From Akkermansiaceae bacterium (GTDB lineage Bacteria; Verrucomicrobiota; Verrucomicrobiia; Verrucomicrobiales; Akkermansiaceae), in contig JABDRB010000029.1 of the NCBI GenBank assembly GCA_013041925.1, forward strand, positions 62,001-126,000: a DNA stretch of 64,000 nucleotides, read 5' to 3'. Positions 7,896-44,219 of the stretch are shown here, piece by piece (within the stretch, counting starts at the first letter, position 1; each line of letters begins with the position of its first letter). A model generated the notes under the pieces. The model was not told the DNA's origin, searched no databases, and saw only the letters and a program-made list of their open reading frames with translations. Both the position numbers and the translations under genes were made by a program.

Positions 7896-8044
7896 GGTGT
7901 TTTGATGTTTTTTTATAAAAAATGGGGGATGCGCGGCTCCTCAACGGCGGCTTGTGGCCAACCATGGATTCAGGATACAGAGGATACAGGCATTATTGAA
8001 TCGACTAAGGCCGCGCGCGCGCTGGTCGGTTTTTAACGAACCCA

Positions 8045-8425: not shown

Positions 8426-8552
8426 GGATCTGTGTTTGATGTGTTTGATGGGTGTCGCCCAATGAGTTCGCCTTATGGATTCAAAGATGACCTAACGGGT
8501 GACGGTGTTAATTTTGAAGGAGGTGGTTCATATTAGTGGAGGTTAATAAGGA

Positions 8553-8580
8553 GAATAACGTGTGGTGAAATAGCGGTCAA
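8553..8580 (-). promoter_or_regulatory. Candidate promoter for the small membrane protein
   Basis: On the minus strand TTGACC (8575-8580) is followed after 16 bases by TTATTC (8553-8558). The -35 is good and the -10 is poor, in a very AT-rich stretch about 130 bases upstream of the start codon. Confidence 0.3.
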
Positions 8581-8684
8581 TTATAGAATTATTATAATCG
8601 AATATTTTTTTTGATAATCACGAAAAACCGTTTAGTGGTCCAAGTATTTAGCGTCCTGGAGCGAAGCGGACGATGGCGGGGAGG

Positions 8685-26095: not shown

Positions 26096-27199
26096 ATGAA
26101 AAAATCGATTTATTCTTGTGCCACCCTGATGGTGGTTGTTGTTGGTGCCCTTTCTCCTTCGTTGAAAGCTGGCGTGTCGTCCCCTGTTGGTTCTCAAGTA
26201 TGTAAGGACTGCAGCGATACTGATTGTTCCTGTATTTCCGACTGTGGTTGTGCGGCCGACAGCCATGACTTTTTCCCCCACGCCCCGATCGGCGTGATGG
26301 GAGATCACATTCACCGCAAGGGTGGTTTGATGGCGTCCTACCGGTATATGATGATGCGGATGCAGCGCAACTATGATGGTGATTCCCGTATTGGCGATGC
26401 TGCGGCTCTCAATGATTATATGATGGCGCCGACGGATATGGATATGCAGATGCATATGCTGGGGGTGATGTATGCGCCCACGGACAAACTCACGCTGATG
26501 CTGATGACGAACTATCTCGAGAACGAGATGGGGATGATCAATAGGGCGGGAGTGAAATCCTCGATGCGCTCGTCAGGCTGGGGAGATACCACACTTTCCG
26601 GTTATTACAGCTTGTATCAAAAAGCTCAAAGCAGCGCACACTTCGGGCTTGGTCTTTCTGCCCCTACTGGGAGCATTGACGAAACGCTTGCTGGTGGCGT
26701 GCATCAGCCGTATCCCATGCAGTTAGGATCTGGAACCTGGGACTTGAAACCTTCCCTGACCTGGCTAGGTCGGTCGGGTGACAGCGACTGGTCCTATGGA
26801 AGCCAGGCGTCTGCGGTGATTCATCTGGGTGAAAACGATCATGGCTATAGCCTGGGCGATAGCGCCAGCCTGACCGGATGGATCAGTCGTCGACTCAGTG
26901 CCTGGTCCGCCGTTTCCCTGCGCCTCACGGGGACGACATGGGGCGATGTGGAGGGTCGTGATATCATGATGCCCACGGTTCCCATGGGTGCGATGATGGG
27001 TCAGCCGATGGCGGCATCGGCGGATCCTGATGTGCGAGCCGGCTCAAGGGTTGACCTTTCGGTTGGGCTCAATCTCTGGAGCACTGAGAACGGCGCGCGT
27101 GTAGCGATCGAAGCCGGTGCACCTGTCTATCAGAACCTTGACGGACCTCAACTCGGAACGGACTGGTTTGCATCAGTAGGTATCCAGTTTGCCTGGTAA
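26096..27199 (+). CDS. Met/Cys-rich outer-membrane beta-barrel protein, metal-associated family
   Basis: This 367-residue protein has a signal peptide (about residues 1-25). It then has a cysteine cluster (Cys 36, 39, 44, 46, 50, 52) followed by HAPIGVMGDHIHRKGG and a dense Met region (YRYMMMRMQ, MDMQMHMLGVMY). The rest alternates polar and hydrophobic residues and ends in aromatic FAW, as outer-membrane barrels do. Proteins with the HAPIGVMGDH opening are often annotated simply as transporter and occur with copper-handling genes. Met, His and Cys richness fits copper binding. The function is inferred from composition and neighbours only. Confidence 0.8.
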   Translation: MKKSIYSCATLMVVVVGALSPSLKAGVSSPVGSQVCKDCSDTDCSCISDCGCAADSHDFFPHAPIGVMGDHIHRKGGLMASYRYMMMRMQRNYDGDSRIGDAAALNDYMMAPTDMDMQMHMLGVMYAPTDKLTLMLMTNYLENEMGMINRAGVKSSMRSSGWGDTTLSGYYSLYQKAQSSAHFGLGLSAPTGSIDETLAGGVHQPYPMQLGSGTWDLKPSLTWLGRSGDSDWSYGSQASAVIHLGENDHGYSLGDSASLTGWISRRLSAWSAVSLRLTGTTWGDVEGRDIMMPTVPMGAMMGQPMAASADPDVRAGSRVDLSVGLNLWSTENGARVAIEAGAPVYQNLDGPQLGTDWFASVGIQFAW

Positions 27200-27215: not shown

Positions 27216-29696
27216 TTATTCTAAGGTGGGTTGTGCAACTTCATTGCGGAGTTGCGCTTCACCACCTTTTTTTTCGTAAACTCCGTAGAAATTTGACATG
27301 GAATCTAACCAAAGCGTGATCCGGTGCATCTCGTTCTTGGAGAGTTTGACGCCGTGGTGGTCATCTTTAAGTAGTTTATATAATGGGGATGCGTGGGCAC
27401 CGAATTTGCCAGGGGTGGTTCGGTAGCGATCACTGAAGCTCGAAAATGCGTAGTTATGAATCAAGCTGTCATAAGACCTGAACACCTTGGTGGGGGTATT
27501 GCCTAATTTTGACAAGATCACCTTACGGTCCAATGGAGGGGCTCCTTTTTCGGCATGATCTCTGTGGCATTGCACGCAGTTTTTATCGAGAACGGGTTGG
27601 ACGAGAAGGGGGTAGCTAAACGGATTGCTGCCCTCGACATCGGCTTGAGGAGTGGACGGTGGCCGTTGTAATGCGAGGGCCACCCCGTGCCGCGGCATGG
27701 GTGTGGATTGCTTGGATTCGTGGCAACCGTGGCAGACCATACGTTCACCCGGTTGCACCCAAGTGGATGAGCGCATCGACTGCACCGCTAGTCCATTTTG
27801 ATCGAGTGCTTGAAAATAAACCTCCTTCAGTGCGGGTAGGGTGAAGTGGGCGCTGCCGTCTTTTTCGACTGGTACGGTGCCCAGTATCTTGCGGGCAAGG
27901 TTGACGGAGTCCTTGGCCTCCGCAATCCGGAGTCCTGTTTCATGAGGTGGCTTACCGCTGGGCACGGAGCTTGGGAGGATTTGATAGATACGCAGAGCCT
28001 TGATTTTGGTGCCTTCTGGCCACGGCAATTTACTGTCGTAGACATTCATGACGGCCATAGTGCCATGCTGGGGGGGGGACTTGGATCGGCGGTCTGACAT
28101 ATCAGGTATGACTGGTGGTTTGTTCCGAGCGCGTAGTGGGATGGGGCTCAAGCATGCCATCTTGGTGTCTCGGTAAAGCAGGACTTTATTGCCAAAGGCG
28201 TCTAAGAGGTAGATACCGTAGTTTCCCTTATTTGATTTTCCCGAGTGCTTGTCATGCGTGTATTGCATCGCGGTATCATAAACGCAGAGGTAGTAATTTT
28301 CGCTCAATGGCCAAGGCGTACCGTAAACTTCCTCTCCCCCTTGGCTTTCGGGGAAAGCCACTTCTGGGGTTAGCCGTTTGACGGGGGCCATGGCATCGTC
28401 ATCGGGGATCCGTGGGTCATGGATAATGAGTGAACCGTAGGCCTGACCGTGATGAGGGGCGGCGGTCCCCACGATTTTTTGGGAGTTTGGGATGGCTCGC
28501 AGGTCCATTTCCATATCGGCACGTTTTGCTTTGATGGAGAAATTGCCGTGCATAGCTCTGGAGTTGCGGCCATCGGGGGTCATGATCCACGGGTGATGGG
28601 CGGTGCACCCGTGACGGTCGACATAGTCCCAACGTGTATAAAGGATCATACCGTCATGGCTGACGCTGGGTTGCCACTCATTGTTTTCGTGCGGGCTGAG
28701 GATTCGGATATCCGAGCCGTCCGGATGCATGTCGTAGACGGTGTAGCTTGGGCAGCTTCGGCCGCAGCGAAGGTAACCACCTCGTCGTTCGGAGATGAAT
28801 GCCAGTCGGCCGTTGGGTAACAGGCAGGGGTCAAAATCGTTGAATGTGCCATCGGTGAGTTGCCGGAGGTTTTTGCCACCCATAGTGGGCGCAGCCGTCG
28901 GGTCCAGGTCAAAGGAGAACAGATGGTAGCAGCGACCTCGGCTCCAGTGTCCTTGATTGGCATGATCGAGGTGTTGCCTGTGTCCTCGCTTGCCGGTGCA
29001 CTCGACGTAGGAAAAAAAGACACGCTTGCCGTCGTAGGAGAGTTCGGGAGAAAGGTAGCTTCCTCCATCGAGTTTCTGTCCCTTGAGTCGTCCCTGATTG
29101 ACGGTTGTTTTTTTCAGTAGATCGATGGTTTCTGGTTGGTTGCCGAATGGGTTGGCCAGTACGAAAACACCACCGCCGGGCACGGCATGGGTGCCGTAAT
29201 ACTGGTCGCACATGTGATCGAACTTCGCGCGTTGTCTCTTGATAAAAAGGATTTTATCGAAGTTCAGCAATGGGTTGGAGAATGCGATGGTGCGCCGCAG
29301 GGTGTGGGCTTGTTGAAAAATTTGGTAGCGTTTTTGGGGGTCGCTGACGGCCGTCTGGGACGCCTGTTGGGTGAGGCGGTCGAGTGACTTGGAATGGGGC
29401 GCCATGTTAGGTGCGCTAGGCATTCCTGAGATATCTTTGAGGAGCAACTGGGTGCGGCGGAGGATGACATCGACCGGGTCGCGGTCGTGGTCGTGGATCA
29501 AGGCCGACTCGTGATAGGTTTCCTGTTTGAACTGTTGGATCCGTGCTGCATTTTGAATGTCCTGAGCAAGCACTTCATACTGGGCTTTGGCCTCGAGATC
29601 ATGGCCGACTGGTTGAGGCTCTGCGTAGGCCACGTGTATCACAGAGATAAAAATAAGTGCTGGTATCGAGGTTTTATGACCCAATGGTATAAACAT
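27216..29696 (-). CDS. HzsA-like secreted di-heme protein with PD40 propeller
   Basis: This 826-residue protein has a signal peptide ending near AYA (residue 25). The N-terminal part contains FDKILFIKR. A propeller region with PD40/TolB-like repeats (LSPELSYDGKRVFFSYV, PDGSDIRILSPHENNEW) spans about 220-470. A segment like the middle domain of hydrazine synthase alpha (ALRIYQILP, RKILGTVPVEKDGSAHFTLP) follows at about 560-650. Then come two c-type heme motifs, CHGCH (655-659) and CVQCH (707-711). The family is common in Verrucomicrobiota and Planctomycetota outside anammox bacteria. Hydrazine synthesis itself is not implied. A paralogue lies at 33676-37053. Confidence 0.85.
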   Translation of the reverse strand: MFIPLGHKTSIPALIFISVIHVAYAEPQPVGHDLEAKAQYEVLAQDIQNAARIQQFKQETYHESALIHDHDRDPVDVILRRTQLLLKDISGMPSAPNMAPHSKSLDRLTQQASQTAVSDPQKRYQIFQQAHTLRRTIAFSNPLLNFDKILFIKRQRAKFDHMCDQYYGTHAVPGGGVFVLANPFGNQPETIDLLKKTTVNQGRLKGQKLDGGSYLSPELSYDGKRVFFSYVECTGKRGHRQHLDHANQGHWSRGRCYHLFSFDLDPTAAPTMGGKNLRQLTDGTFNDFDPCLLPNGRLAFISERRGGYLRCGRSCPSYTVYDMHPDGSDIRILSPHENNEWQPSVSHDGMILYTRWDYVDRHGCTAHHPWIMTPDGRNSRAMHGNFSIKAKRADMEMDLRAIPNSQKIVGTAAPHHGQAYGSLIIHDPRIPDDDAMAPVKRLTPEVAFPESQGGEEVYGTPWPLSENYYLCVYDTAMQYTHDKHSGKSNKGNYGIYLLDAFGNKVLLYRDTKMACLSPIPLRARNKPPVIPDMSDRRSKSPPQHGTMAVMNVYDSKLPWPEGTKIKALRIYQILPSSVPSGKPPHETGLRIAEAKDSVNLARKILGTVPVEKDGSAHFTLPALKEVYFQALDQNGLAVQSMRSSTWVQPGERMVCHGCHESKQSTPMPRHGVALALQRPPSTPQADVEGSNPFSYPLLVQPVLDKNCVQCHRDHAEKGAPPLDRKVILSKLGNTPTKVFRSYDSLIHNYAFSSFSDRYRTTPGKFGAHASPLYKLLKDDHHGVKLSKNEMHRITLWLDSMSNFYGVYEKKGGEAQLRNEVAQPTLE

Positions 29697-30030
29697 GCTT
29701 GTTGAGGTTCTTTTCCCTGAGATGATAACGGGGGAGAGTGGATGGGTCTTTCACGAAAGTCATCGAGAATATGATCTGAGCCAGGGGTGGCTCCACATCC
29801 AGAATGAAAAAGAGCCCCAAGGAAGGTTGTCACGCGGATTTTAGGGAGATAAAACGCCTCCAACTCAGCGCGGGTTGATACGTCCCATTTGAACTGTTTC
29901 AATAAGCGCTTGCAGAGGGGGATCTCTTCCACTAGGATGGCAGGCGTTTCTCATCAAACCTATCCCCCCTCTCAAACCTATCCCTCAACAGGGATCCCGC
30001 CGAACATTAAACAAAACCCCTCATCACCCT
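29697..30030. other. Divergent intergenic region with direct repeats
   Basis: This 334-base region separates the minus-strand HzsA-like gene from the plus-strand GH16 gene. Besides a 13-bp direct repeat near its right end, I see no convincing -35/-10 pair. A minus-strand frame from 29932 encodes LLKQFKWDVSTRAELEAFYL and related sequence, possibly a relic, but I cannot identify it. Confidence 0.5.
29954..29984 (+). repeat. 13-bp tandem direct repeat upstream of GH16
   Basis: TCAAACCTATCCC occurs at 29954-29966 and again at 29972-29984, 18 bases apart, 47-77 bases upstream of the GH16 start codon. The spacing of just under two helical turns is compatible with a regulator binding as a tandem dimer. 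Confidence 0.6.
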
Positions 30031-33000
30031 ATGGAAGCCTATTCGAACACCTCGCCCAAAAAGCAAATTCTTAGCAGCTTTCCCATCAGCACAACCACGC
30101 AACAACATTGCGCGTGGTTCAGCATCTTGATTAGCTTAGTCATGTGTATTACTATGTCTGCCAATGCTGACACGTTTGGTGGCGGCACCATCATCCAGCC
30201 CGCCACGGCTTCTGGCGGCACTGGCGCGGTGGCCGACCTCCAGACGGACAATGACGCCCGATACTCCGTTGCCAAAAGCGCCTCCATGAGCGTTGGGGGC
30301 TTCGGCTCCGGATCGGGCACTATCAATTCGGTGTATGTATTTGCCCAGTATTCCGTCGAATCCGGCTACAACGGGACCAATGCTCTCAAGGTCAACGGTG
30401 TGAACACCACAATCGTGCCCGCCGACCGTGACTATGGTCGCTGGGGTTACACTGAGATCACCGCAGGCGACTTTGGCGTCGACACCTTGGCGGAAATTGC
30501 AAGCCTCTCGGTGACCTTTACCAACAATGACAGTGGCGCAGGTGATGCCGTCCTCTTCGACTGCATCTACATCGTGGTCAACCCAACTTCTTCCATTCCC
30601 ATTCACCCGAACTGGATCGAGGACTTCAATGGAACCGGTCAGGCCAATCCCATGGTCTGGAACTACGAAGAGGGTTACCAGCGCAACAACGAGTTGCAAT
30701 ACTATGTGTCAGGTTCGGACAATGGCTGGCAGGAGGGCGGCAACTTCATTATTGAGGGCAAAAAGGATACCGCCAATGACTATTCTGGCTACGATTACAC
30801 GTCCGCCAGCATCGTCACGTCCAACAAGTATTACTGGCATTATGGTCGGGCCCAAATCCGCGCTAAGATTCCTGCCAAGTCCGGCATGTGGCCCGCCATC
30901 TGGGGCACGGGTGAAGTCGGAGATTGGCCGCACAATGGCGAGGTGGACATTCTCGAATACTACAACAACAAGATTTTGGCCAACTGTGCGGTGGGCACGA
31001 CTTCGCACTGGGGCTCCAAATGGGATCCCTACACGCCCGATCGAAGCATGAGCAGCCTGGAGGCCGTGGACTCCAATTGGAGAACCGGTTGGCACATTTG
31101 GACCATGCAGTGGGACGATCAGAATGTAAGGCTTTACGTGGACAACATCCTGATGGGCACGGTTCCGCAGACCTGGCTGAGAAATACGAATGGTGCCTCG
31201 CAATGGGGCCCAGAGTATCCCTTCATCAGCAACGGCATGAGTTGCTGGCTTAACCTCGCTATCGGCGGCAATGCGGGTGGGGATCCCACGGCCACCATGA
31301 ACAGCGGCCCTCAGCGTTACCTCATCGACTATTGGAAAATTTGGGAAGGGGCGACGAGTAACGTGGCACCCACCGACATCACGATGGACTCCTATGCCGT
31401 GCAGGAGGGTGCGCCCGCTGGGACAGTGGTTGGCAACCTTGCTGCCATCGACGCCGACCCAGCGGAGGTGCATCGCTACGAGCTCGTTTCCGGCACTGGC
31501 GACACGCACAACAGCGAGTTTTCCATCCCGGAATTCGTTTCTGACAACACTATGAGCGGAGTCCTCAAAACAGCGTCGGTACTAAGCTATGACGACGGCG
31601 CCACCCGCAGCATCCGCGTGCGAGTCACCGATATTGAAGGTGCGAAATACACCAAGGTGATCAACATCAACGTAATCGGCCAGCCCCAGATTAATGTCAG
31701 TCCAAGCTCGGTGTCGGTTCCGGAGGGTGGCACCCAGACCTTCTCCGTAAAACTGCGCACGCCTCCGGCTAGCGATATCACGGTGAATGTCAGCCGCCAG
31801 TCCGGCGACAGCGATCTAACTGTAAGCTCCGGAGCATCTTTGGTCTTCACTCCTTCCAATGGAACGGATTGGCAGATAGTTACATTGGCGGCCGCGGAAG
31901 ATGGCGACAACAACAACGGAACGGCGATCATTCTCTGTTCAGATGGCAGCGGCACTTATACCAGCGAAACGGTGGATGCCACTGAAGCGGAAAATGACAA
32001 TGATGCGCCGGTGGTAGATGCTGGGATTGATGATGCGGTGTTTTTCTCGGGTGGTGGGCCATGGTCTCCCGCAGGCATCAGTCCCGATGCTTGGTACGAT
32101 GCTGCCGATGCGGCAACCATCACCGAGGCTGCCGGAGTCGTCTCGCAATGGAGGGATAAGAGCGGCAACAACTACCATCTAAATCAGGGCACAGCCGATA
32201 AACAGCCGACCTACAGCGCCACCGCATGGAATGGCTCCCTGCCTGCTGTCACCTTTGACGGATCCAATGACTATCTTGAAAACGTGACGAAGCTCACTCA
32301 GGGTGCCGTGACGCTCGCCGCGGTCTTTCAGCAGTCCAATACCGATGCCAACGACCGAGCCTTCGGCATCCGAGGCAGCCAAGCCACCGGTCCGTCAAGC
32401 TTCTCTTTGGCTATGGACAATACTCTCCGCTATGACGGGGGGTACAGTGCAGGCAGCATAACGGCCACCACTGGCAAGCACTTGCGTGTGGCGACTCGCT
32501 CGACCTCGAGCCAATTGGGCTACATCGATGGCAGCCAGAACATCAATGCCAGCGTTTCGCTTGACAACATCGATGGTTACATCAACACAGGCAACGTGAG
32601 TGAAACCTTGGCGAATGCTTTTGCCGGCAAGGTCGTCGAGGGTTTGGTCATTTTCGGCACCATCAGCACGACGGATCGAGAAAAGATAGAAGGCTACTTT
32701 GCCCACAAGTGGGGATTGGCAAGCAATTTACCTGGGGGGCATCCTTACTTCGCGGAAGCTCCTGGTGGCGGCAATGTGACAGTAATTCTCGACGGTACGG
32801 TCAGCGATCCTAATGACGACTCACTCACCACGCTTTGGTCGGTGGTCAGTGGTCCTGGCTCAGTGAGCTTTGACGATGCCAGTGCTGTCGACACTACGGC
32901 AAGTTTTTCGGAGTATGGAAGTTACGTGCTGCGATTAACGGCCGGTGACGGCGTCGATAGTACCTTCGCCGAAGTGACCATCACTGTCAGCGTCGCCAAC

Positions 33001-33462
33001 ACCTACAGTGCTTGGGCGGGTGGTAGTTTTGCTAATCCGTTCACCGAGTTGGGTTACATCCGCAATCCTGACGATGACAATCTTAACAACCTGCAGGAAT
33101 TCGCCTTTGGGACGGATCCGACAAGTTCGGATAGTTTGCCATTGATTTACACAGCCAATGGGGATGTCAACCGGCCGGGTAAACCGATATTGCAAAATTT
33201 TGCCGCACAAGGAGAGTCGCCAGCATATCGAGCAGTCTATAGTCGTCGCAAAGACTTCGACACAGCGGGCCTTACCTATACGGTTGAATTTAGCGCAGAT
33301 CTTGAGCAATGGACAGCTAGCGCAGTAACCCCAACGGTGCTAACAGGATCAGGTTCGGCTGGCGATCAAGAAGCTGTAAGCGTTCCATTTCTCACTACAG
33401 TGCCTGCGAACGGCGGCGCTCAGAATTTGCCACCAAAATTCTTCAGAGTGTCGTTGAATTAA
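30031..33462 (+). CDS. Secreted multidomain GH16 endo-beta-glucanase/laminarinase-like enzyme
   Basis: This 1143-residue exported protein has a signal sequence ending near residue 47 and a beta-sandwich region to about 185. The GH16 catalytic domain (about 195-450) has its motif GEVDILEYY, with nucleophile E304, D306 and acid/base E309. Then follow a cadherin-like domain (about 455-550), a Calx-beta-like domain (about 555-655), a LamG-like domain (about 673-910), a PKD-like domain and the tail NLQEFAFGTDP typical of secreted verrucomicrobial proteins. GH16 members cut beta-1,3/1,4-glucans, agar, carrageenan or porphyran; laminarin-type glucan is the simplest guess. The coding strand is unusually C-rich for this window. 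Confidence 0.93.
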   Translation: MEAYSNTSPKKQILSSFPISTTTQQHCAWFSILISLVMCITMSANADTFGGGTIIQPATASGGTGAVADLQTDNDARYSVAKSASMSVGGFGSGSGTINSVYVFAQYSVESGYNGTNALKVNGVNTTIVPADRDYGRWGYTEITAGDFGVDTLAEIASLSVTFTNNDSGAGDAVLFDCIYIVVNPTSSIPIHPNWIEDFNGTGQANPMVWNYEEGYQRNNELQYYVSGSDNGWQEGGNFIIEGKKDTANDYSGYDYTSASIVTSNKYYWHYGRAQIRAKIPAKSGMWPAIWGTGEVGDWPHNGEVDILEYYNNKILANCAVGTTSHWGSKWDPYTPDRSMSSLEAVDSNWRTGWHIWTMQWDDQNVRLYVDNILMGTVPQTWLRNTNGASQWGPEYPFISNGMSCWLNLAIGGNAGGDPTATMNSGPQRYLIDYWKIWEGATSNVAPTDITMDSYAVQEGAPAGTVVGNLAAIDADPAEVHRYELVSGTGDTHNSEFSIPEFVSDNTMSGVLKTASVLSYDDGATRSIRVRVTDIEGAKYTKVININVIGQPQINVSPSSVSVPEGGTQTFSVKLRTPPASDITVNVSRQSGDSDLTVSSGASLVFTPSNGTDWQIVTLAAAEDGDNNNGTAIILCSDGSGTYTSETVDATEAENDNDAPVVDAGIDDAVFFSGGGPWSPAGISPDAWYDAADAATITEAAGVVSQWRDKSGNNYHLNQGTADKQPTYSATAWNGSLPAVTFDGSNDYLENVTKLTQGAVTLAAVFQQSNTDANDRAFGIRGSQATGPSSFSLAMDNTLRYDGGYSAGSITATTGKHLRVATRSTSSQLGYIDGSQNINASVSLDNIDGYINTGNVSETLANAFAGKVVEGLVIFGTISTTDREKIEGYFAHKWGLASNLPGGHPYFAEAPGGGNVTVILDGTVSDPNDDSLTTLWSVVSGPGSVSFDDASAVDTTASFSEYGSYVLRLTAGDGVDSTFAEVTITVSVANTYSAWAGGSFANPFTELGYIRNPDDDNLNNLQEFAFGTDPTSSDSLPLIYTANGDVNRPGKPILQNFAAQGESPAYRAVYSRRKDFDTAGLTYTVEFSADLEQWTASAVTPTVLTGSGSAGDQEAVSVPFLTTVPANGGAQNLPPKFFRVSLN

Positions 33463-33587
33463 GCGAGACCAGTATAAGAATGCCCTAAGATCTATTTGAA
33501 AATCGTTGCGAAAATGGGTCAGGGGTAAGAATCGAGCACATGGGTTACACGTTGGACGAGGGCATAGGTTACGCTGAATGGGCAATC

Positions 33588-33636
33588 CAACCCAGGTTGG
33601 CAGAGCTGTGCTTGCGACTTCGCTGACCCTGGGTTG
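33588..33636. repeat. Inverted repeat downstream of GH16
   Basis: CAACCCAGG (33588-33596) and CCTGGGTTG (33628-33636) are perfect inverted copies around 31 bases, in the gap between the convergent GH16 and HzsA-FGE genes. The left arm can also fold on itself (CCAACC-CAGG-TTGG). It may be a terminator structure or part of a decayed element. Confidence 0.4.
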
Positions 33637-33675
33637 TTGCCGATAGGGTTGGTTGGGCTGGATGAGTGTTTCTGC

Positions 33676-36600
33676 TCATTCAACAATGATGCGGAATCCG
33701 ACGTTGTAGACTTTTTGGAAGCGAGGGTAAGGGAGGCGATGGCTGGAGGTGGCGCGGTGAGGCCGGTCCCGCCATGAGCCGCCGCGGACGACGCGTAGGG
33801 CAGAGTGGTGGTTGTCGGCTGCTGTATTATCCGCCGGGTAGGGGCGGTAGTCTGAGCGAGTCCACTCGGCGACGTTGCCGTGCATATCGTAGAGCCCCCA
33901 CGGGTTTGCTTTGTATTTTTTGGGTGCTTGTGCGAGGAAGCTGCCGTCGTCGATGTGATCGATGCGCGGGACGTAGGCTTCGTATGGGTTGGGATTGGGT
34001 ATTTTTTGCCAGCTGAAGTATGGGTATTTTCCTTTGGCTGAGTCGTCGGCGTAGTCTTGGAGGCTTTTGTCGGCGAGGTTGGAGAACGGGTGGAAGTCGG
34101 TGCCTTGGTCGCCGAACCAGAAGGGGGTGGCGCGGGTGGCACGGCATGCCCATTCCCATTGGGATTCGGTGGGGAGGGATATTTTTTTACCGGTCTTTTG
34201 TGACAGCCATTGGCAGAATGCGGTGGCGTCGTCCCAGCTCAGGCGGACGGCGGGCAGGGTGTCGCCGTTGACGTCGTAACAGGTTTGGCCGAACTGGTAG
34301 CCGTGTCGGTCCTCGTAGCGGCTATTGTGGTTTGGGTTGAAGCGGCGCATTTGCGCGTTGGTGATCTCGCTTTCGGCCATCCAGAACCCGTTATGGATAG
34401 TTTGTGGGTGCATGGGGAGTTCGTCCAGGGCGCCGTCTGCGGAGCCCATGGTGAACTTTCCGGCGGGGATGTAGACTAGGTTGATCGATTGCCCGCGGCC
34501 GAGGTCCAGGGTGATGTTGTTACGTTTGCTGGTGGATGTGGTGGCTTTAAATGGCAGGGTGCCGGCGGCGCGCGTTTGTTTTTCGGCGTTCTGGTCTGGG
34601 ACTGGGAGGGGGGGCAGTTTTTGGGGTTTGGGTGGGTTGGTGTTGCCGAAGGGGGTGCGGTAGGCGCTGTAGATGGCGGCGAGTTCGTTGGAGCGTTTCA
34701 TGCCCAGACGCACGCCCTTTTCCACTGGGAGTCCGCGGACGATGTCGAGTCGGTCGCCGTGGAAGGGTGTGTTAAAATCGATCCACTGGTAAATGCGTTG
34801 CCATTCGGACGGGTTGATTTTTACGCCGTGGTGGCCTTTTTTGAGCATCTGGACGAGTTCGGTGGAATCTGCGCTGAATTCCTTGGCGGTGAGCAGGGCC
34901 ATATCGCTTTCGATTCCTGGGCCGCGGGTCATTTTGAAAAGTTGGTAATAGCTTTGGGAGAACCTCCCTCCGTAGCTTTTTGAGTTGGCTGAGCCGGCGT
35001 AGCGGACTTTCCAGTCCTTGAGTAAATCCGCGCCGAGGTAGGGGATGGGTTTTTGTTGATAGTCTGCGCGGTGACTGGTGTATCGTCCGTTGGCCGGTTT
35101 TCCATCGTGGCAGCTAAGGCATTTTTGGTCGATGATGGGCTGGATTTGTGTGGCGAAGCTGAAGTTTTCGATGTCGTCTAACAGTTCATCTAGAGGGGTA
35201 GGGGTGGAGGTGGAGGCGGTGGTTGTTTTTGGTAGTGGGCTTTCGTGGGAGCCTTCGTGACAACCGATGCAGGAGACGCGTTCGCCTGGCTGGCCAGTAA
35301 ACCAGCTGCGCATGATTTGGAGTGCTTGGCCATTTTGATCCACGGGTAATAGGAAGATGGGTGTGTTGGCGGGGATGGTGAAGTGTGCCGAGCCATCGGC
35401 GTGCACGGGTACGGTGCCGAGGACTTTTTTGATATCCCAAGGGCCGTCCATACCGATGGTTCCTAACAGTCCTCCGCTGCCCTGGCCGCGGATCGGTGAA
35501 GCGGGTGAAAACTCGTAGGAGCAAACGCGCAGTGACTTGACGGAGCCGCGCGGGACGCCTTTTAATCCTGGGCCATGATAGATGTCTTGGATGTAGACGG
35601 TGGCGGTATTGATTGATTCGTCAACTCGGTCACTGATGACTGGGGGTTTGGGTGATTTTTTCAGTGGGATGGGCTCGAAGAATCCGTATTCCTCTTGTTC
35701 CATGATCAGGGTGCGGTTGTCGAAGATGTCGACCAGGTAGATGCCCCAGAGAGCATCGGGGGTTGGTTTCATGGAGACGAGGAAATATTTTCCCGCTCCC
35801 TTGTGGCTACCGGATTGCGCGACAGGGAATGGTTGCGTTATTTGTGGCCAGATACCGTCGGCGAGACGGTCGCGCACGATGGCTTGGACTTTTTTCCCAT
35901 AGCCTGGGATTTCCTGTACCACGCCGTCGGCCTCGTGGGTACCGAGTTGGGGGTCGACAATGAGCATTCTGCCGGTGCGTGAGTTGCCGTGGTGTCCAGT
36001 GGCGATGCCAACGACCTTGGTGGGGTCACCGGGGATGGGACGGGCGTAGAAGAAGGAGGCGGGGAAGTAGGAGTTGGAAAAGAGGTAGGATTTCTGGCGT
36101 GTGCCATCGGGGTGCATCGTCATCAGGATCCGGGAGTTCGAGTGTGGGAGGTCGCTGTATTCCCAGCGTAGGTAGAGCACGCGGCCGTCATTGTGGACGG
36201 TGGGGCACCAGCTGCTGTCTTGGTCGAATGAGAGTTGCCGAATTTTTCCAGATGTCGGGGTGAGCCGGTAGATGCTCGACATACGAGGTTTGCCATCGAT
36301 GCAGGGCATGCCGCAGAAGCTTGCGGTGGAGGTGAAGATGATATCGCCATCGGGCAGGTAGCAGGAGTCGAAGTGGTCGACGTCATTGCCGTCGGAGTCG
36401 GGGGTGAGTTGCTTGAGGCCTTTGCCATCAACGCCGAGTTCAAAGAGGCGGAAGGCATTTTGGTTGTTCAGTGACGAGAACATAATTTTTTGATGATCAA
36501 AATGAAGGTCGATATCACTGATGAGCTGCTTTTTTTCTGTTTGGTAGAGGGAGTGAACCCGAGCGTTGTTTTTGAATGATTCGATTTGGGCAATCTCGCT

Positions 36601-37053
36601 GGGAAGTTCTTTGAGGGCATTATACATCGATGAGAAGTTACCGGCGGCCATCCCAATACGCCGTCCCATCAATATGCGGTCGTTGTTGTTTCCAAGATGC
36701 CGACGCACGACGAGGATTTTATCGAAATCGAGTGCTGGGTTTGCCAGTAGGGCACGTTTTTGGAGCTGGTCGAGTGCGTCGATACGTTGTTTTTCATCGG
36801 CGATCTGTTCGAGAGCTGATAGCTCGGCGAGGAATTTTTCTCCAGAGAAGGCGTGTGGATGGTCGTTTTCGATATCCTCGATTGCCCTGCGCAGCGACAG
36901 GATTTTTTCTGCGGTTGATTGCGTTTTGATGACTTCGGGAAAGGGGACCGATGTGTGTGCTCTGGGTGATTTCTCCTGCCCGATGGAGCTACCTACGATG
37001 AGGGAGCCTAGAGATAAATAAAGCAGCGTCGCTTCAATGTGTTTCCTGGTCAT
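33676..37053 (-). CDS. HzsA-like di-heme protein fused to FGE-like (SUMF1/EgtB/PvdO) domain
   Basis: This 1125-residue exported protein repeats the plan of the gene at 27216-29696: FDKILVVRRH near the N-terminus, a PD40-type propeller, and an HzsA-alpha-like middle segment (ATVYIQDIYHGPGLKGVPRG, MDGPWDIKKVLGTVPV). Heme motifs CIGCH (595-599) and CLSCH (645-649) follow. Residues about 855-1125 then form a formylglycine-generating-enzyme-like domain: LVYIPAGKFTMGS, SWDDATAFCQWLS, LPTESQWEWACRA, WGLYDMHGNVAEWTRSDYRP and VVRGGSWRDRPHRATSSHR. The last motif lacks the catalytic Cys pair of true FGEs. The protein is probably periplasmic or surface-exposed; its substrate is unknown. Confidence 0.88.
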   Translation of the reverse strand: MTRKHIEATLLYLSLGSLIVGSSIGQEKSPRAHTSVPFPEVIKTQSTAEKILSLRRAIEDIENDHPHAFSGEKFLAELSALEQIADEKQRIDALDQLQKRALLANPALDFDKILVVRRHLGNNNDRILMGRRIGMAAGNFSSMYNALKELPSEIAQIESFKNNARVHSLYQTEKKQLISDIDLHFDHQKIMFSSLNNQNAFRLFELGVDGKGLKQLTPDSDGNDVDHFDSCYLPDGDIIFTSTASFCGMPCIDGKPRMSSIYRLTPTSGKIRQLSFDQDSSWCPTVHNDGRVLYLRWEYSDLPHSNSRILMTMHPDGTRQKSYLFSNSYFPASFFYARPIPGDPTKVVGIATGHHGNSRTGRMLIVDPQLGTHEADGVVQEIPGYGKKVQAIVRDRLADGIWPQITQPFPVAQSGSHKGAGKYFLVSMKPTPDALWGIYLVDIFDNRTLIMEQEEYGFFEPIPLKKSPKPPVISDRVDESINTATVYIQDIYHGPGLKGVPRGSVKSLRVCSYEFSPASPIRGQGSGGLLGTIGMDGPWDIKKVLGTVPVHADGSAHFTIPANTPIFLLPVDQNGQALQIMRSWFTGQPGERVSCIGCHEGSHESPLPKTTTASTSTPTPLDELLDDIENFSFATQIQPIIDQKCLSCHDGKPANGRYTSHRADYQQKPIPYLGADLLKDWKVRYAGSANSKSYGGRFSQSYYQLFKMTRGPGIESDMALLTAKEFSADSTELVQMLKKGHHGVKINPSEWQRIYQWIDFNTPFHGDRLDIVRGLPVEKGVRLGMKRSNELAAIYSAYRTPFGNTNPPKPQKLPPLPVPDQNAEKQTRAAGTLPFKATTSTSKRNNITLDLGRGQSINLVYIPAGKFTMGSADGALDELPMHPQTIHNGFWMAESEITNAQMRRFNPNHNSRYEDRHGYQFGQTCYDVNGDTLPAVRLSWDDATAFCQWLSQKTGKKISLPTESQWEWACRATRATPFWFGDQGTDFHPFSNLADKSLQDYADDSAKGKYPYFSWQKIPNPNPYEAYVPRIDHIDDGSFLAQAPKKYKANPWGLYDMHGNVAEWTRSDYRPYPADNTAADNHHSALRVVRGGSWRDRPHRATSSHRLPYPRFQKVYNVGFRIIVE

Positions 37054-37241: not shown

Positions 37242-39104
37242 TTGCACGTGAAACCATTGTCGCAAGAGGCGTGGGGAGATATTATTAATCCCGGAAGCAG
37301 GATGTTCATCGGCAGCGGTGCTGCGGTGCCCTTTGCTGTTGTGGAATCGATGCTGAAGGAAGCGGGGTCGTTCCGAGATGTTGAGTTGACGCATATTCAT
37401 ACCATCGGGGAGATGCCGTGGGTGGCGAAAAAGTATGACGGGTCATTGCGGACGAACACGTTTTTCCTGACGCCATCGATCCAGCAAGCTGTGGCTGCGG
37501 GTCGGGCGGACTACACGCCGTGTCCGCTGTCTGATGTGCCATCGCTTTTTGGCGGGCACTTGTTACCCGTGGATGTGGCGTTGATTCAGGTGAGTCCGCC
37601 TGATGCGCAGGGTTATGTTTCCTTGGGGGTGAGTGTGGATGTGGTCAAGGCGGCAGTGAAAGCGGCGCGAGTGGTGGTCGCACAGATTAATCCGTCGATG
37701 CCGAACATTGGCGGGTTGGCGCGCATTTCGGGTAGGAATATTCACTACTATCTCGAAGCAGATCGGCCACTGCCTGTGATTGATTGGGATGTGCCGAATG
37801 CCGCGCAGTTGAAGGCGGCCGAGTATGCCTCACAGCTCGTTGAGGATGGATCGACGATTCAGGCTGGGCTGGGGAACACACCGCAGGTGGTTCTGTCTGC
37901 GTTAAAAGATCATAAGCATTTGGGGATTCACACTGGTCTGTTTAGTGATGCGATGATGGAGTTGGTGCAGTGTGGGGCGGTGGACAACTCGATGAAACAT
38001 TACCACGACGGGAAGGTGGTGTGCTCCACCGTGTTGGGGTCGAAGCGATTGTATGATTTTGTGGACGGCAATGATGGCATTGAGATGCAGCCGTCTGATT
38101 GGGTTTCTGATGTTTCCCGCATTGAAAAGAACGACCGGATGGTGGCGATTCACGGAGCATACGAGGTTGATCTTACCGGGCAGGTGGTGCGCGACTCACG
38201 AGGTCATCGGTTTTACGGTGGGATGGGGAATACGCAGGATTTTATTCGTGGTTCGGCGCACAGTAAGCATGGACGACCGTTGATCGTGCTGACATCGATG
38301 TCGGATGATGGGAAGAGCTCGCGGATTGTTTCAGGGTTTAAGCCAGGCAGTGGAGTGAATACGGGGCGGGGTGACGTGCACTATGTGGTGACGGAGTATG
38401 GGGTAGCGAGACTGCGGGGCAGGAGTATCCGTGAGCGAGTATTAAACATGGTGGAGGTGGCGCATCCTGATCACCGTGAGAAATTGTTACGAGATGCGCA
38501 CACGTGGGGGTGGATCCCGAAATTTTATAACGTGACACCCACCAGTATGAAAGATGATGCCTCTGAGGTGGAGTCACGTCGGGTGGAGTTGAAGGGGCAT
38601 AGCTTTATGTTCCGGCCGTTGCACCCTAGTGATACGCGCGGGTTGCAGGAGTTTTTCTATTCCCACACTCAGGAGACGGTCAATATGCGTTACGGGCACG
38701 TTAAGGACAGGTTGACCAATGAATCGGCATATAAGCTGACATCGGTTGATCAAGCTGTTGATGCGGCCTTTGCGTTATTTGACGAGCATGACCACCGACA
38801 AGAGATTTGCGCGGTGGGTCGGTTTTACTGTGACGCCTCTGGGGATTCAGCGGAGGTGGCCTTTGTGGTGGGTGAAAAGAAGCGGCGTATGGGGATGTCT
38901 CGATTTTTGTTGGGTGAGCTTGCCTCCGTGGCCCAACAAAGAGGGATTAAAACCTTATGGGCCTCCGTGTTGAAACGAAATAAAGCCATGGCTTCCGTGT
39001 TTCAAAAGCTCGGTGCGGTCAAGGAGTCTGAGCTTGGCGAGGATAGCGATGATTTCCTGATGGACGTTGGCCAATTAAACAAATCTCTCCATCGTTCATC
39101 ATGA
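37242..39104 (+). CDS. Acetyl-CoA hydrolase/transferase fused to GNAT acetyltransferase domain
   Basis: Residues 1 to about 440 resemble the acetyl-CoA hydrolase / 4-hydroxybutyrate CoA-transferase family: SGAAVPFAVVESML, YTPCPLSDVP, QAGLGNTPQVVLSAL, FYGGMGNTQDFIRG and VTEYGVARLRGRS. Residues about 455-620 form a GNAT N-acetyltransferase domain (FMFRPLHPSD, VAFVVGEKKRRMGMSRFLL). The stretch LGIHTGLFSD has Gly232 where family members usually carry the catalytic Glu (HTE/HSE). The start is a weak TTG at 37242, with GTG at 37248 as an alternative. It is near pta-ackA and a deacetylase gene. Confidence 0.88.
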   Translation: MHVKPLSQEAWGDIINPGSRMFIGSGAAVPFAVVESMLKEAGSFRDVELTHIHTIGEMPWVAKKYDGSLRTNTFFLTPSIQQAVAAGRADYTPCPLSDVPSLFGGHLLPVDVALIQVSPPDAQGYVSLGVSVDVVKAAVKAARVVVAQINPSMPNIGGLARISGRNIHYYLEADRPLPVIDWDVPNAAQLKAAEYASQLVEDGSTIQAGLGNTPQVVLSALKDHKHLGIHTGLFSDAMMELVQCGAVDNSMKHYHDGKVVCSTVLGSKRLYDFVDGNDGIEMQPSDWVSDVSRIEKNDRMVAIHGAYEVDLTGQVVRDSRGHRFYGGMGNTQDFIRGSAHSKHGRPLIVLTSMSDDGKSSRIVSGFKPGSGVNTGRGDVHYVVTEYGVARLRGRSIRERVLNMVEVAHPDHREKLLRDAHTWGWIPKFYNVTPTSMKDDASEVESRRVELKGHSFMFRPLHPSDTRGLQEFFYSHTQETVNMRYGHVKDRLTNESAYKLTSVDQAVDAAFALFDEHDHRQEICAVGRFYCDASGDSAEVAFVVGEKKRRMGMSRFLLGELASVAQQRGIKTLWASVLKRNKAMASVFQKLGAVKESELGEDSDDFLMDVGQLNKSLHRSS

Positions 39105-39552: not shown

Positions 39553-40989
39553 CTATTTGGGCATGGGTGCGGGTGGCACATTGAGTTTGACGTTGCGGAA
39601 GTGCACGGTATTGCCGTGATCTTGGAGGAGGATGTGTCCGTCAGCCCAGCTGCCGAATCCGGGGATATTCCGGTACTTACTTTTGGCGACGATGGCGCTG
39701 AATGCTGGGGTGCTACGATCGTATTCAACGACTTTTTGACCATTGAGCCAGTGTTCGACGTGGGTGCCGTCGGTGACAACACGCATCGAGTTCCACTCGC
39801 CGATTGGGCTGGGTTTTTTTGATGTGTCAGCAGTGATGAGGTCGTAGAGAGACGCAACGGTGCGGTTGCCGTTGGTGCCTTTTTTTGCGTCTGGGTGTTT
39901 AACATCGTCGAGGATCTGGCTTTCTAGGCCGATGGCAGATCCTTTTTTGGCCTTGGCACCGCCGCCGGTGACGGGGTCGAGGTTAGGTTGGCAGAAGTAT
40001 TTCACGCCGCTGTTTGCGCCTGGAGTGATTTTGAAGTCGAGTTTCAGGTCGAAGCGGGCGTAGCGTTGGCGGGTGACGATGTCGCCGCCTGAGACGGATT
40101 CACCACCGCCGCTTTCGAGCACGGTGAGGACGCCGCTATCGATTTTCCAACCGGTTTTTGGGAAGGTGTCGATTTTTGCGCCGCGCCATCCGTCGGTTGT
40201 TTTTCCGTCCCAGAGGAGTTTCCATCCTTGGGCGATCTCCTCGGCATTCAGGCTGTTATCACCTGTGCCGGGGACGATTTCTTTGATGCGCAGGTTGCGC
40301 CATGCCACGGTGGTGCCTTCGATGTCTTTGCTGTGGATCGAGTGAACTTGCAGGCCGATAAAGCCGCTTGGAGTCATGTCATCTTGAATGGATGCGCGCG
40401 GGGTGCCGTTGAGCCATGTGCGGATGGATGAGCCGATGGCCTCGACACGGACGTGGTTCCAGTCATTGGCTTTAAAGCATTCGGAGCCTTGTTTTGAGAA
40501 GGCCTCGCCACTACCCCCGAGTTGGCCGGGAAAGAGCCATTTGCGGCGGCCTTCGTCGAAGATGCCGGTGCTCCAAAGTCGGCCACGTTTGACATCGGGG
40601 TCGATTTCGATTTGGTAGCCGTGGACGCGGCCGGGTTTGACGGTGATTTTTTTTCCGTTCCACTCATACTGGTGGGGTTTGTCAAAACATTGACTGCGGA
40701 CCTGAACACCGGAGTTGAGCCGGGGGTCGACTTTAAATTCGTATTCGAGGATGAAGTCACCGTAGTTTTTTTCGGTGCACATGAAGGAGTTGGGAGTTTT
40801 TATCACCGAGTGACCGACGATGACGCCGTCCTCGATGCTGTATTTGGCTTTACCTCCTTTTTGTGTCCATCCGTCGAAATCCTTTCCGTTGAACAAATTT
40901 TTCCAACCGTGGTCTGCGGTTGCCATTCCAGTGCTTAATAAGGCTGCGGCAGCAGCGATTCCCGACCAACGAATAGTTGTGTATTTCAT
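39553..40989 (-). CDS. Secreted twin DUF1080 (3-keto-disaccharide hydrolase) protein
   Basis: This 478-residue protein starts MKYTTIRWSGIAAAAALLST, a signal peptide ending near ATA. It contains two consecutive 3-keto-disaccharide hydrolase (DUF1080) domains of about 200 residues. The first spans about 28-220 (WKNLFNGKDFDGWTQKGG, LNSGVQVRSQCF, GYQIEIDPDVKRG) and the second about 240-475 (WKLLWDGKTTDGWRGAK, GANSGVKYFCQPN, GLESQILDDVKHPDA). The fold is a concanavalin-like jelly roll; characterised members hydrolyse 3-keto-glycosides. Paired domains may bind and cleave one chain. A longer start at 41016 is less likely. Confidence 0.93.
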   Translation of the reverse strand: MKYTTIRWSGIAAAAALLSTGMATADHGWKNLFNGKDFDGWTQKGGKAKYSIEDGVIVGHSVIKTPNSFMCTEKNYGDFILEYEFKVDPRLNSGVQVRSQCFDKPHQYEWNGKKITVKPGRVHGYQIEIDPDVKRGRLWSTGIFDEGRRKWLFPGQLGGSGEAFSKQGSECFKANDWNHVRVEAIGSSIRTWLNGTPRASIQDDMTPSGFIGLQVHSIHSKDIEGTTVAWRNLRIKEIVPGTGDNSLNAEEIAQGWKLLWDGKTTDGWRGAKIDTFPKTGWKIDSGVLTVLESGGGESVSGGDIVTRQRYARFDLKLDFKITPGANSGVKYFCQPNLDPVTGGGAKAKKGSAIGLESQILDDVKHPDAKKGTNGNRTVASLYDLITADTSKKPSPIGEWNSMRVVTDGTHVEHWLNGQKVVEYDRSTPAFSAIVAKSKYRNIPGFGSWADGHILLQDHGNTVHFRNVKLNVPPAPMPK

Positions 40990-41148
40990 AATGAATTTTC
41001 TCTGTGAGGGCGGCATTATTCTTGCTCGTCATCACATATCAAGTGCAAATGTGGTTTGGGTTTTCAGATGGCGTGAGTTTCATGGGGTGATCTTATAAAC
41101 AACCTTGTCGAGGGCGTGGCGTGTGGTCATAGTGCTGGAAGAATTAAG

Positions 41149-42116: not shown

Positions 42117-44219
42117 TTAACTCTGCTGGTCGAGCTGCTGGGCTTGGATGCAGGTGATGGCGATGGTGAAGACGATGTCTTCGACCGAGGCTCCGCGCGA
42201 GAGGTCGTTAACGGGTTTACGTAGTCCTTGGAGGATGGGGCCCATGGAGATGACGTGTCCGGCGCGTTGTACGGCTTTGTAGGTGGTGTTTCCTGTGTTG
42301 AGGTCAGGGAAAATAAAGACGGTGGCATCACCCTTAATTTTGCTGTTGGGCGCTTTGGTTTGAGCGACTTGTTTGTTGCTGGCGGCATCGTATTGGAGTG
42401 GGCCGTCGAGCAAGAGGTCGGGTCTGAGTTTGTGGACTTGGGTGGTGGCGGCTCGGACTTTTTCGACATTGGAACCGGATCCCGAATCGTGGGTCGAGTA
42501 AGAAATCATAGCCACTCGGGGTTCGATGCCAAAAGCACTGGCGGTATTGGCACTTTGGATCGCGATATCGGCGAGTTGGTGGGCATCGGGGTCGAGATTA
42601 ACGGCGCAGTCGCCGTAGACAAGCACTTGGCCGGGTAGACACATGAAAAAGACGGATGAGACTCCGGTGGCTCCGGGAGCGGTGCGGATGAGTTGGAGGG
42701 CGGGGCGGATGGTGTCGGCGGTGGAGTGAATGGCACCCGAGACGAGGCCATCGACTTCTTCCATGGCCAGCATCATGGTGCCGAGTGTAATATTGTTTTC
42801 CAGTCGGCTGATTGCCTGTTCCTCGGTGAGATTTTTATGTTTACGCAGCAGCATCATGGGAGCGACATATTGTTCCCGGCATTGCTGGGGGTCGATGATG
42901 GTGATGCCCTCGGGCAGTTTGATGCCGTTGTGTTCGGCGACGGCTTCGATGGTGTCTTTGTTTCCGAGGAGGACGGGGATAGCGATGCCGCGTTGAAAAC
43001 AGATGGCAGCTGCCTCTAGGGTGCGCGGTTCCTCTCCTTCGGGGAGTACGATGCGTTGGGGTTTCTGACGGGCAATTTTTGAAATCTGGTGACGGAAGGC
43101 GGGCGGGGAAAGTCGTGGTTTGTTGGGTGTGGTGCAGTGTTGTTTCAGCCATTGTGTATCGATGTTACGAGCCACATGATCGACGAGTTGTTCGAGCCGT
43201 TGGGTGTCGTCCGCGGGTGTTTCTGGGTTGAGGGATGAGAGTGCTTGGGCGGTTTCAAATGAGGATGTTTTGGCGGTGAGCACGGGAAGCCCAGATTCGA
43301 TGCCGACCTTACAGTAGTTAAGGATATCAGGCTCAGGGGGCATGTCTCCGGTGAGTACAAGTCCGGCGAGTGGGATGCCATTGAGTGAGGCGTAGGCGGC
43401 GCTGATGATGATGTCAGAGCGGTCTGCTGGGGTGACAACCAATGATCCGGCGTGGAAGACGTGGGTGAGGTGGTCGATGTCACGCGCGCAGAGGTGGATC
43501 TGGGTGACCCGGCGGGTGTGGATTTCACCTTCGTGGAGTGTGGTTGTTTTGAGTGGGGCGACGAGGTCGCTTGTGCGCAGGTGGGTGAGGCTGTTTTTGA
43601 AGGGAATGAAACCGATCAGTTTGATCTTGTCCTTGATGAGGATAGGGCATCGTTGCAGAATCGAGGAGGCATCTGCATGGCATTGGCTGCTCCCTTGGTT
43701 GATGATAGCGCCAAGGATGCGTTCGCTTTTTACACCGCCAAATGCTTGGCAGGCGGACTCGAGTCGGCGGTTGATTTTCTGACAGGTTTTCTCTGGGTTA
43801 GTACCTTTGGCGGAAGCAACGAAGATTACCTCGGCATTGAGCGCGTTGGCGATGCGCGGGTTGAGTTCGTTGAGGAATTGGTTTTTTGACGATGCTTGCA
43901 GGCCTTCGACGATGACGACGTCGGTGTTCTTGGCGGCGGTTTGAAAGTTTTCCGCGATGCGTTCGAGGAGGTTTTCGATTTGGCCGGAGGCGAGGATGGT
44001 TTCTGTTTCCTCGATGGAGATGGGTTCCGGTGGGTTGAGCGAGGAGATGCTCCGGATGTAGGCGGTGGAGAGGTCGGTGCTTTGTTCGTGATACGACTGG
44101 CTAATGGGTTTGAAGAAGCCGATGCGCAGGCCCATTCGGTCGAGTGCCCGGACGAGTCCGATGGATGTGGAGGTAAGTCCGGCGTGGTCCGAGGCGGGGA
44201 CGATGAGGAAGGTGTGCAT
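42117..44219 (-). CDS. pta: Phosphate acetyltransferase (long form)
   Basis: Pta interconverts acetyl-CoA and acetyl phosphate. The 700-residue length is the long form, with an N-terminal P-loop-like BioD/CobB-related domain (FLIVPASDHAGLTSTSIGLV), a DRTGG domain (about 200-330), and the C-terminal catalytic domain (about 365-695) starting KPQRIVLPEGEEPRTLEAA. It includes MEEVDGLVSGAIHSTADTIR and ISYSTHDSGSGSNVEKV. It lies 11 bases after ackA, forming an ackA-pta unit for acetate production or uptake. Confidence 0.96.
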   Translation of the reverse strand: MHTFLIVPASDHAGLTSTSIGLVRALDRMGLRIGFFKPISQSYHEQSTDLSTAYIRSISSLNPPEPISIEETETILASGQIENLLERIAENFQTAAKNTDVVIVEGLQASSKNQFLNELNPRIANALNAEVIFVASAKGTNPEKTCQKINRRLESACQAFGGVKSERILGAIINQGSSQCHADASSILQRCPILIKDKIKLIGFIPFKNSLTHLRTSDLVAPLKTTTLHEGEIHTRRVTQIHLCARDIDHLTHVFHAGSLVVTPADRSDIIISAAYASLNGIPLAGLVLTGDMPPEPDILNYCKVGIESGLPVLTAKTSSFETAQALSSLNPETPADDTQRLEQLVDHVARNIDTQWLKQHCTTPNKPRLSPPAFRHQISKIARQKPQRIVLPEGEEPRTLEAAAICFQRGIAIPVLLGNKDTIEAVAEHNGIKLPEGITIIDPQQCREQYVAPMMLLRKHKNLTEEQAISRLENNITLGTMMLAMEEVDGLVSGAIHSTADTIRPALQLIRTAPGATGVSSVFFMCLPGQVLVYGDCAVNLDPDAHQLADIAIQSANTASAFGIEPRVAMISYSTHDSGSGSNVEKVRAATTQVHKLRPDLLLDGPLQYDAASNKQVAQTKAPNSKIKGDATVFIFPDLNTGNTTYKAVQRAGHVISMGPILQGLRKPVNDLSRGASVEDIVFTIAITCIQAQQLDQQS

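Follow-up and report, generated by a model that had tools for sequence, protein, structure and literature searches.

Two divergent homologues of hydrazine synthase alpha in an Akkermansiaceae genome

Two large di-heme proteins, p1 and p2, are encoded in the window (the whole 64,000-nucleotide stretch of Akkermansiaceae DNA that was analysed). Both are divergent homologues of HzsA, the alpha subunit of hydrazine synthase, and they belong to a set of 11 paralogues in this genome, which has 11 matches to the Pfam family HZS_alpha. It is very probable that they are HzsA homologues and not hydrazine synthases, and hydrazine synthesis by either is not expected. We give an even chance to p1 and p2 being secreted di-heme oxidoreductases that act at glycans. 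The gene for p1 (27216-29696, minus strand, 826 amino acids (aa)) was recognized as an open reading frame with a Pfam HZS_alpha match, a structural model and a match to the solved HzsA chain 5c2v_A. The gene for p2 (33676-37053, minus strand, 1125 aa) was recognized by open reading frame and Pfam, and its product has an additional C-terminal domain of the formylglycine-generating enzyme (FGE) fold. Between them lies an open frame for a laminarinase-like protein with a Pfam match to family GH16 (30031-33462, plus strand, 1143 aa). A sequence-only reading of this DNA had described two heme proteins flanking a GH16 gene, and all three frames were confirmed.

Homology to HzsA covers three domains. 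Both proteins matched Pfam HZS_alpha (PF18582, curated cut-off 26.6 bits), with E 4e-25 and 88.6 bits for p1 and E 2.7e-31 and 108.4 bits for p2. The matched middle domain comprises residues 564-660 of p1 (27717-28007) and 503-600 of p2 (35254-35547; all features within p1 and p2 are on the minus strand). This profile search bears out the HzsA-like middle segment described from the sequence and strongly supports the HzsA-like identity of both proteins. When a profile of 26 family members, including p1 and p2, was run against solved structures, it matched 5c2v_A (HzsA of Kuenenia stuttgartiensis) at E 8.5e-41 in four stretches over the propeller, the middle domain and the cytochrome-c domain. 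The AlphaFold model of p1 (mean pLDDT 92.7, pTM 0.92, from an alignment of 79 proteins) also had 5c2v_A as its best solved match in Foldseek (E 6.3e-31), and VIA-align matched 568 residues across three domains (model 145-817, Z 34.2, rmsd 3.1). TolB-type propellers were among the structural matches as well, and with the model strands they place the beta-propeller of p1 at residues about 145-530 (28107-29264). Residues 32-139 (29280-29603) form a mostly helical N-terminal region in the model, outside the 5c2v_A match that begins at residue 145. By eye, both p1 and p2 look as if they start with a signal peptide.

Several smaller features described from the sequence hold in part. The FDKIL motif, taken to open both proteins, is present (residues 146-150 of p1 and 110-114 of p2) but marks the start of the propeller, not the N-terminus. 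The proposed PD40-type propeller exceeded the Pfam cut-off in p1 (24 bits against 20.9); p2 had no PD40 match at E 0.01, although the sequences of p2 and p1 can be aligned over the propeller. Each protein does contain two CxxCH motifs, at residues 655 and 707 of p1 and 595 and 645 of p2. The heme I site is C655-H659 in p1 (CHGCH, 27720-27734) and C595-H599 in p2 (CIGCH, 35257-35271), and the heme II site is C707-H711 (CVQCH, 27564-27578) and C645-H649 (CLSCH, 35107-35121), respectively. Among the window frames of at least 150 aa, CxxCH was found only in p1, p2 and DnaJ, and no beta or gamma gene was found in the window.

The site residues of HzsA are replaced in both proteins. In the available portions of the published work, Tyr591 is the proximal ligand of the heme-alpha-I iron, and His587 and Cys303 bind zinc (PMC12607021; PMC12758564); Cys303 is also described there as missing in Scalinduaceae (PMC12758564). 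The 5c2v_A chain numbering is 27 below that of these papers, as counted on the printed alignment. The position of Tyr591 is occupied by Gln663 in p1 and His603 in p2, with tyrosine in one of 159 family members, while the Cys303 column contains Phe in p1, Asn in p2 and cysteine in none of 163 proteins. Against the NCBI model for hydrazine synthase alpha (NF052339, equivalog cut-off 800 bits), p1 scored 36.5 and p2 46.6 bits. No protein exceeded this cut-off in five genomes reached through named loci, so that the 5c2v chain is the sole true HzsA reference. Despite the homology over three domains, it is therefore hardly credible that p1 and p2 are true anammox-type alpha subunits, an idea already contradicted by the low scores, the absence of Tyr591 and Cys303 and the lack of genes for beta or gamma within the window. 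The anammox partner family PF13447 (hydroxylamine oxidoreductase) had matches in none of four genomes, but also in none of 14 controls. The absence of anammox context noted from the sequence is correct for the window; elsewhere, on another contig, the genome has one fused HzsB-HzsC-like gene. The HZS_alpha domain alone is no marker for anammox.

Conserved residues of the propeller and hemes

Conservation was counted in 163 proteins longer than 600 aa, including p1 and p2; seven rows are duplicates, from two contigs present twice. In p1 numbering, Cys311 (28764-28766) is conserved in 152 proteins. The motif R355-W356-x-Y358-x-D360 (28617-28634) is conserved at Arg355 in 159, Trp356 in 153, Tyr358 in 153 and Asp360 in 142, and the pair H415-H416 (28449-28454) in 147 and 125. 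Beyond the propeller, Met641 (27774-27776) is present in 146 proteins, His659 of heme I in all 163, Glu660 in 132, His711 of heme II in 156 and His780 (27357-27359) in 149. The whole set (Cys, RWxYxD, HH, Met and CxGCHE) is complete in both p1 and p2. In the p1 model, Cys311 lies between two propeller strands in loop 303-318, Arg355 and Trp356 end strand 351-356 with Tyr358 and Asp360 in the following loop, and His415-His416 lie in loop 414-420. The three sites thus occupy equivalent places of three successive blades, and in the predicted structure they probably share one face. By analogy with HzsA, where Cys303 extends from the propeller to heme I, this face may meet heme I.

From these features we infer that the proteins are secreted and work at glycans, with a redox or substrate pocket at heme I and with heme II as the exit for electrons. 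The pocket would be formed by heme I and the propeller-side residues. Heme II would pass electrons to periplasmic cytochromes or, where present, to a peroxidase/MauG-like beta-gamma partner, and the sugar-binding domains found in relatives would hold the chemistry at glycans.

The same residues may also be read as those of an electron-transfer scaffold that performs no chemistry, with a six-coordinate heme I (His659 and perhaps Met641), a bis-His heme II and a propeller that binds partners. We consider this possible, if on the unlikely side. It is favored by the conservation of Met641 and His780, candidate ligands of heme I and (as second ligand) heme II, by the Ala that HzsA has in the Met641 column, and by the predicted structure of a homologue, which according to the available part of PMC12758564 suggests a canonical heme-c pocket. 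By count, His780 falls within one residue of the register of HzsA His772, of the bis-His heme alpha II, but the profile alignment is gapped in this region. However, the near-invariant Cys311, RWxYxD and HH of the propeller suggest more than a scaffold, and the occurrence of up to 29 paralogues in one genome and of varied accessory domains across the family suggests varied substrates.

Family expansion and domain fusions

HZS_alpha matches were found in 62 of 288 sampled genomes of the phylum. Within the family Akkermansiaceae, 12 of 60 genomes have them: 11, 11, 11 and 29 in four genomes (this one included) and one each in the other eight. A search for related loci confirmed at least 568 relatives, the best 80 of which were used as named relatives; by their titles, these 80 are mostly from Planctomycetota, Verrucomicrobiota, Lentisphaerota and Kiritimatiellota. 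HzsA-like genes also occur in arrays, with six frames in 20 kb at locus L189, five in 20 kb at L192, and seven together with two beta-gamma-like genes in the 40 kb of L190 and L191, where one alpha is cut at the join.

Many family members carry extensions beyond the shared domains, which is the evidence that points to glycans. By our own length rule, an N-terminal extension was present in 55 and a C-terminal extension in 38 of 147 members (80 named relatives and 67 from the window's genome and its relatives, with three left unplaced). With E 0.01 as the threshold, F5/8C domains were matched by 13 of the N-terminal extensions, NPCBM by 12 and laminin-G by three, and FGE-sulfatase domains were matched by 15 of the C-terminal ones. 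Ten hand-picked proteins from the 23 named p1-type relatives with an extension were scanned singly, and seven had F5/8C and three NPCBM. The sugar-binding domains in relatives make it probable that the proteins act on a glycan, on a sugar set free from it or on something attached to it. The idea of redox processing at glycans, which the sequence-only reading drew from the neighboring glucanase, gains from these fusions, whereas the neighborhoods of GH16 and sulfatase genes lend it no support as far as they were tested.

The C-terminal domain of p2, missed in that reading, comprises residues 859-1123 (33685-34479) and matches Pfam FGE-sulfatase at E 7.3e-42 (144.2 bits, cut-off 23.3). It shares the fold family of the FGE/PvdO-type proteins (PvdO 5hha, E 1e-16). 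In formylglycine-generating enzymes the two catalytic cysteines are presumably to be expected downstream of RGGSW, but neither is present in p2, where the region reads RGGSWRDRPHRATSSHR. The motif was readable in 13 of 15 FGE-type frames, and the first cysteine position is Asp in all 13. The second is Cys in four, namely L069, L115 and one gene doubled as L096/L189. The case for a p1-type and an FGE-type alpha as a fixed pair is suggestive only: the two occur together in three genomes (that of the window, that of L096/L189 on one contig, and that of L115) among 54 p1-type loci, in which two contigs are present twice, and in the genus-mate G042 they are on different contigs.

The GH16 gene and neighborhoods of HzsA-like genes

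The GH16 protein matched its Pfam family at E 2.6e-11 (43.7 bits, cut-off 22), with PKD-type and weak cadherin-type matches in addition, and the solved structures closest to it are laminarinases (3iln, E 4.3e-27). The sequence EVDILE at residue 304 (30940-30957, plus strand) is taken here as the GH16 catalytic motif, ExDxxE. In the sequence-only reading, p1, GH16 and p2 formed one functional unit for beta-glucan breakdown. This is very unlikely, even though the GH16 gene lies between both heme genes and is divergent from p1 across a 334-base intergenic region. Its strand, opposite to that of both p1 and p2, was missed in that reading, and the three genes are therefore not one operon. This genome has three GH16 genes, one of them in the window, and a rough calculation gives a probability of about 12% that one or more of the three would fall within 5 kb of any of the 11 alphas. 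In the genus-mate G042, the orthologues of p1 and p2 are on different contigs, the one GH16 gene lies 103 kb from the p1 orthologue, and a convergent sialidase-type BNR gene stands beside that orthologue instead. No GH16 was found in G012 or G044, which have 11 and 29 HZS_alpha matches, and one other of 138 loci (L160) has GH16 within 10 kb of an alpha, the only further point in favor. GH16 was consequently rejected as a conserved partner; it is probably a chance neighbor, and we give a functional link very little credence. In L160, one frame (7046-9259, minus strand) joins GH16, alpha-L-fucosidase and F5/8C, about 3 kb from the HzsA-like gene.

Neighborhood statistics better than chance, anticipated for such genes, were not borne out as far as they could be tested, either for GH16 or for sulfatases. 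Near alphas, 12 sulfatases were seen against 20.7 expected in 51 neighborhoods of four genomes. Here the neighborhoods were counted with our own profile of 20 sequences and the genome densities with Pfam, the whole 64-kb window being counted, and the shortfall may be partly technical. Genes for glycoside hydrolases (GH) or lyases were directly adjacent to alphas in at least 6 of 103 cases (GH16, GH88, MGH1-like, GH43, GH127 and pectate lyase), and none was among the matches listed for 103 control genes, which were drawn from the 243 frames of these loci that lie four or more genes away from every alpha; the matches listed cover 25 of 66, 25 of 52 and 25 of 111 families. In this genome, two other alphas are immediately preceded, on their own strand, by a GH88 and an MGH1-like GH gene. 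DUF7133 was next to alphas in at least 5 of 103 cases and in at least 1 of 103 controls, too few to use.

Several points weigh against action of p1 and p2 at glycans. Neither protein has a sugar-binding domain by Pfam, and the F5/8C and laminin-G folds can bind non-sugar ligands too. In G042 the GH16 gene is not kept beside either orthologue, and the sulfatase count was below expectation. Other alphas adjoin unrelated genes, including those for a phosphonate-type ABC transporter, sigma-54 and SecA. At the transporter locus (L012, contig C10 of this genome, 9188-15281, minus strand), genes for a phosphonate-type substrate-binding protein, an ATPase and a permease are followed by the HzsA-like gene, a possible four-gene operon.

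A possible fused beta-gamma partner

On contig C22 of this genome, an FGE-type alpha is followed by a frame that matches both HZS beta (E 1.3e-25) and HZS gamma (E 2.3e-25), the only such match in the genome. Beta-gamma-like genes were found in 9 of 12 genomes searched, and 11 of their 13 places (split pieces counted once; neighborhoods inspected for 12) are within two genes of an alpha. The weak match in G012 is separated from an alpha by about 7 kb, and the thirteenth place is in G335. As flank lengths differ between loci, adjacency is under-counted. On a tree built with FastTree from 158 alphas, 11 changes are required for the 13 rows that adjoin beta-gamma; the shuffled mean is 12.7, and 18 of 500 shuffles were as low, which indicates that the partnership is spread over the alpha tree. 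Such alphas include L095 in the p1 clade (59% identical to p1) and L057, L013, L050, L088, L089 and L091 in the p2 clade.

Additional genes accompany the fused gene at some loci. A RidA-like gene (Ribonuc_L-PSP, E 3e-11 to 3e-14) is found directly after beta-gamma in L088, L089, L091 and L117, and one gene further in L144. In L088 (G045), L089 (G053) and L091 (G036), all of genus g2 in the same family, the FGE-type HzsA-like, beta-gamma-like and RidA-like genes form a single-strand cassette in which the RidA-like protein has 374-380 aa. A RidA-like gene is also near an alpha in L079, and in L117 and L079 the RidA-like gene has an additional weak match to a chorismatase of the FkbO/Hyg5 type. 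Genes for an IclR regulator, DhaK and DhaL (dihydroxyacetone kinase type) are located upstream of the FGE-type HzsA and beta-gamma genes in L013 (contig C22 of this genome, G000, 268500-288400) and L050 (G042), a context pointing to triose or ketose catabolism.

An alternative is that alphas and the fused beta-gamma protein jointly convert some compound of nitrogen or sulfur, in the way that hydrazine synthase uses NO and ammonium, with one beta-gamma protein serving several alphas in this genome. We regard this as unlikely. The double match of the C22 gene, the proximity of beta-gamma places to alphas across the tree, the p1 and p2 clades included, and the RidA-like genes beside or near beta-gamma are in its favor. 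Against it, no beta-gamma gene adjoins p1 or p2, the ratio of HZS_alpha matches to beta-gamma places is 11 to 1 in this genome and 29 to 1 in G044, and G336 has at least seven alphas on one contig and no beta-gamma. In addition, by our own count, the gamma part has Ile in the HzsC His144 column and is gapped in the Cys165 region, so these gamma-site residues of hydrazine synthase are not kept.

A bolder proposal, which we consider improbable, would combine this partner with the glycan reading. In such a combinatorial system, one beta-gamma unit with a peroxidase/MauG-like gamma part would serve many interchangeable alphas that differ in their targeting modules (lectin-type, FGE-fold or HEAT) and oxidize differing glycan or amino-sugar groups at the heme I/Cys-Arg-Trp-Tyr-His pocket. 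If so, hydrazine synthase would be one specialized branch of a large glycan-oxidizing family.

Local gene order and other neighbors

In the same-genus genome G050, which lacks HZS_alpha, the DnaJ, GrpE and outer-membrane genes are kept in this order and are followed, after 4.1 kb of other genes, by a homologue of the window gene at 47295-47801. At that place G050 thus lacks the stretch 27216-47295, which in the window holds p1, GH16, p2 and metabolic genes, and its 4.1 kb contain a cytochrome c gene. The metabolic genes in these approximately 20 kb are of acetate type. An acetyl-CoA hydrolase/transferase fused to a C-terminal GNAT acetyltransferase domain is encoded at 37242-39104 (plus strand), and a phosphate acetyltransferase gene is located at 42117-44219. 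Also in this stretch, at a distance of 2.5 kb past the p2 start, the gene at 39553-41016 (minus strand, as p2) has two stretches matching the 3-keto-disaccharide hydrolase family (PF06439). On the other side of p1, the gene at 26096-27199 (plus strand), beside GrpE and DnaJ, encodes a Met-rich outer-membrane-type protein with a weak Phenol_MetA_deg match. A homologue is near two FGE-type alphas in G012. The protein was rejected as a partner: 21 of the 60 family genomes contain it, whether or not they have alphas, and G042 lacks it despite having 11 alphas.

Comparison with known relatives

Anammox has hydrazine synthase as its signature enzyme, and the site proposed to join two nitrogens is in the alpha subunit. 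The large set of relatives to which p1 and p2 belong keeps the HzsA architecture, replaces this site and is apparently functionally unstudied. A single substrate would tell what chemistry the fold performs outside nitrogen metabolism and would assign a role to a family of heme proteins that has undergone expansion in some Verrucomicrobiota and Planctomycetota. Compared with HzsA of K. stuttgartiensis (5c2v_A), p1 and p2 have the same order of propeller, middle domain and cytochrome-c domain and the same two c-type heme motifs, with an identity for p1 of 16% (Foldseek) or 22% (VIA). They differ in the extra N-terminal helical region of p1, in the FGE-fold domain of p2 and in that their genes are not beside beta and gamma.

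An expansion of a similar kind is that of the PSCyt proteins of Verrucomicrobia, in the same superphylum, where the available part of PMC5615132 describes many cytochrome paralogues of unknown function, some with carbohydrate-binding modules. They belong to another domain family, as p1 and p2 had no match to the PSCyt Pfam domains at E 0.01. Fusions of HzsA-like proteins to lectin-type or FGE domains are not described in the available portions of PMC12758564, PMC10732223, PMC12607021 and PMC5615132, with no search aimed at such fusions. HzsA homologues outside anammox are already published. As far as PMC12758564 was available, its non-anammox clades I-III likewise lack Tyr591 and Cys303 and lie beside an FG-GAP gene. 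Its clades I-IV adjoin fused beta-gamma genes, as do some of the relatives described here, whereas p1 and p2 do not. Genomes from the Oslofjord tunnel also contain Hzs-like genes outside known anammox bacteria, with hzsA next to hzsBC in the best cases, unlike p1 and p2, and in the available part of that work the authors propose a wide Hzs-like family with other substrates (PMC10732223).

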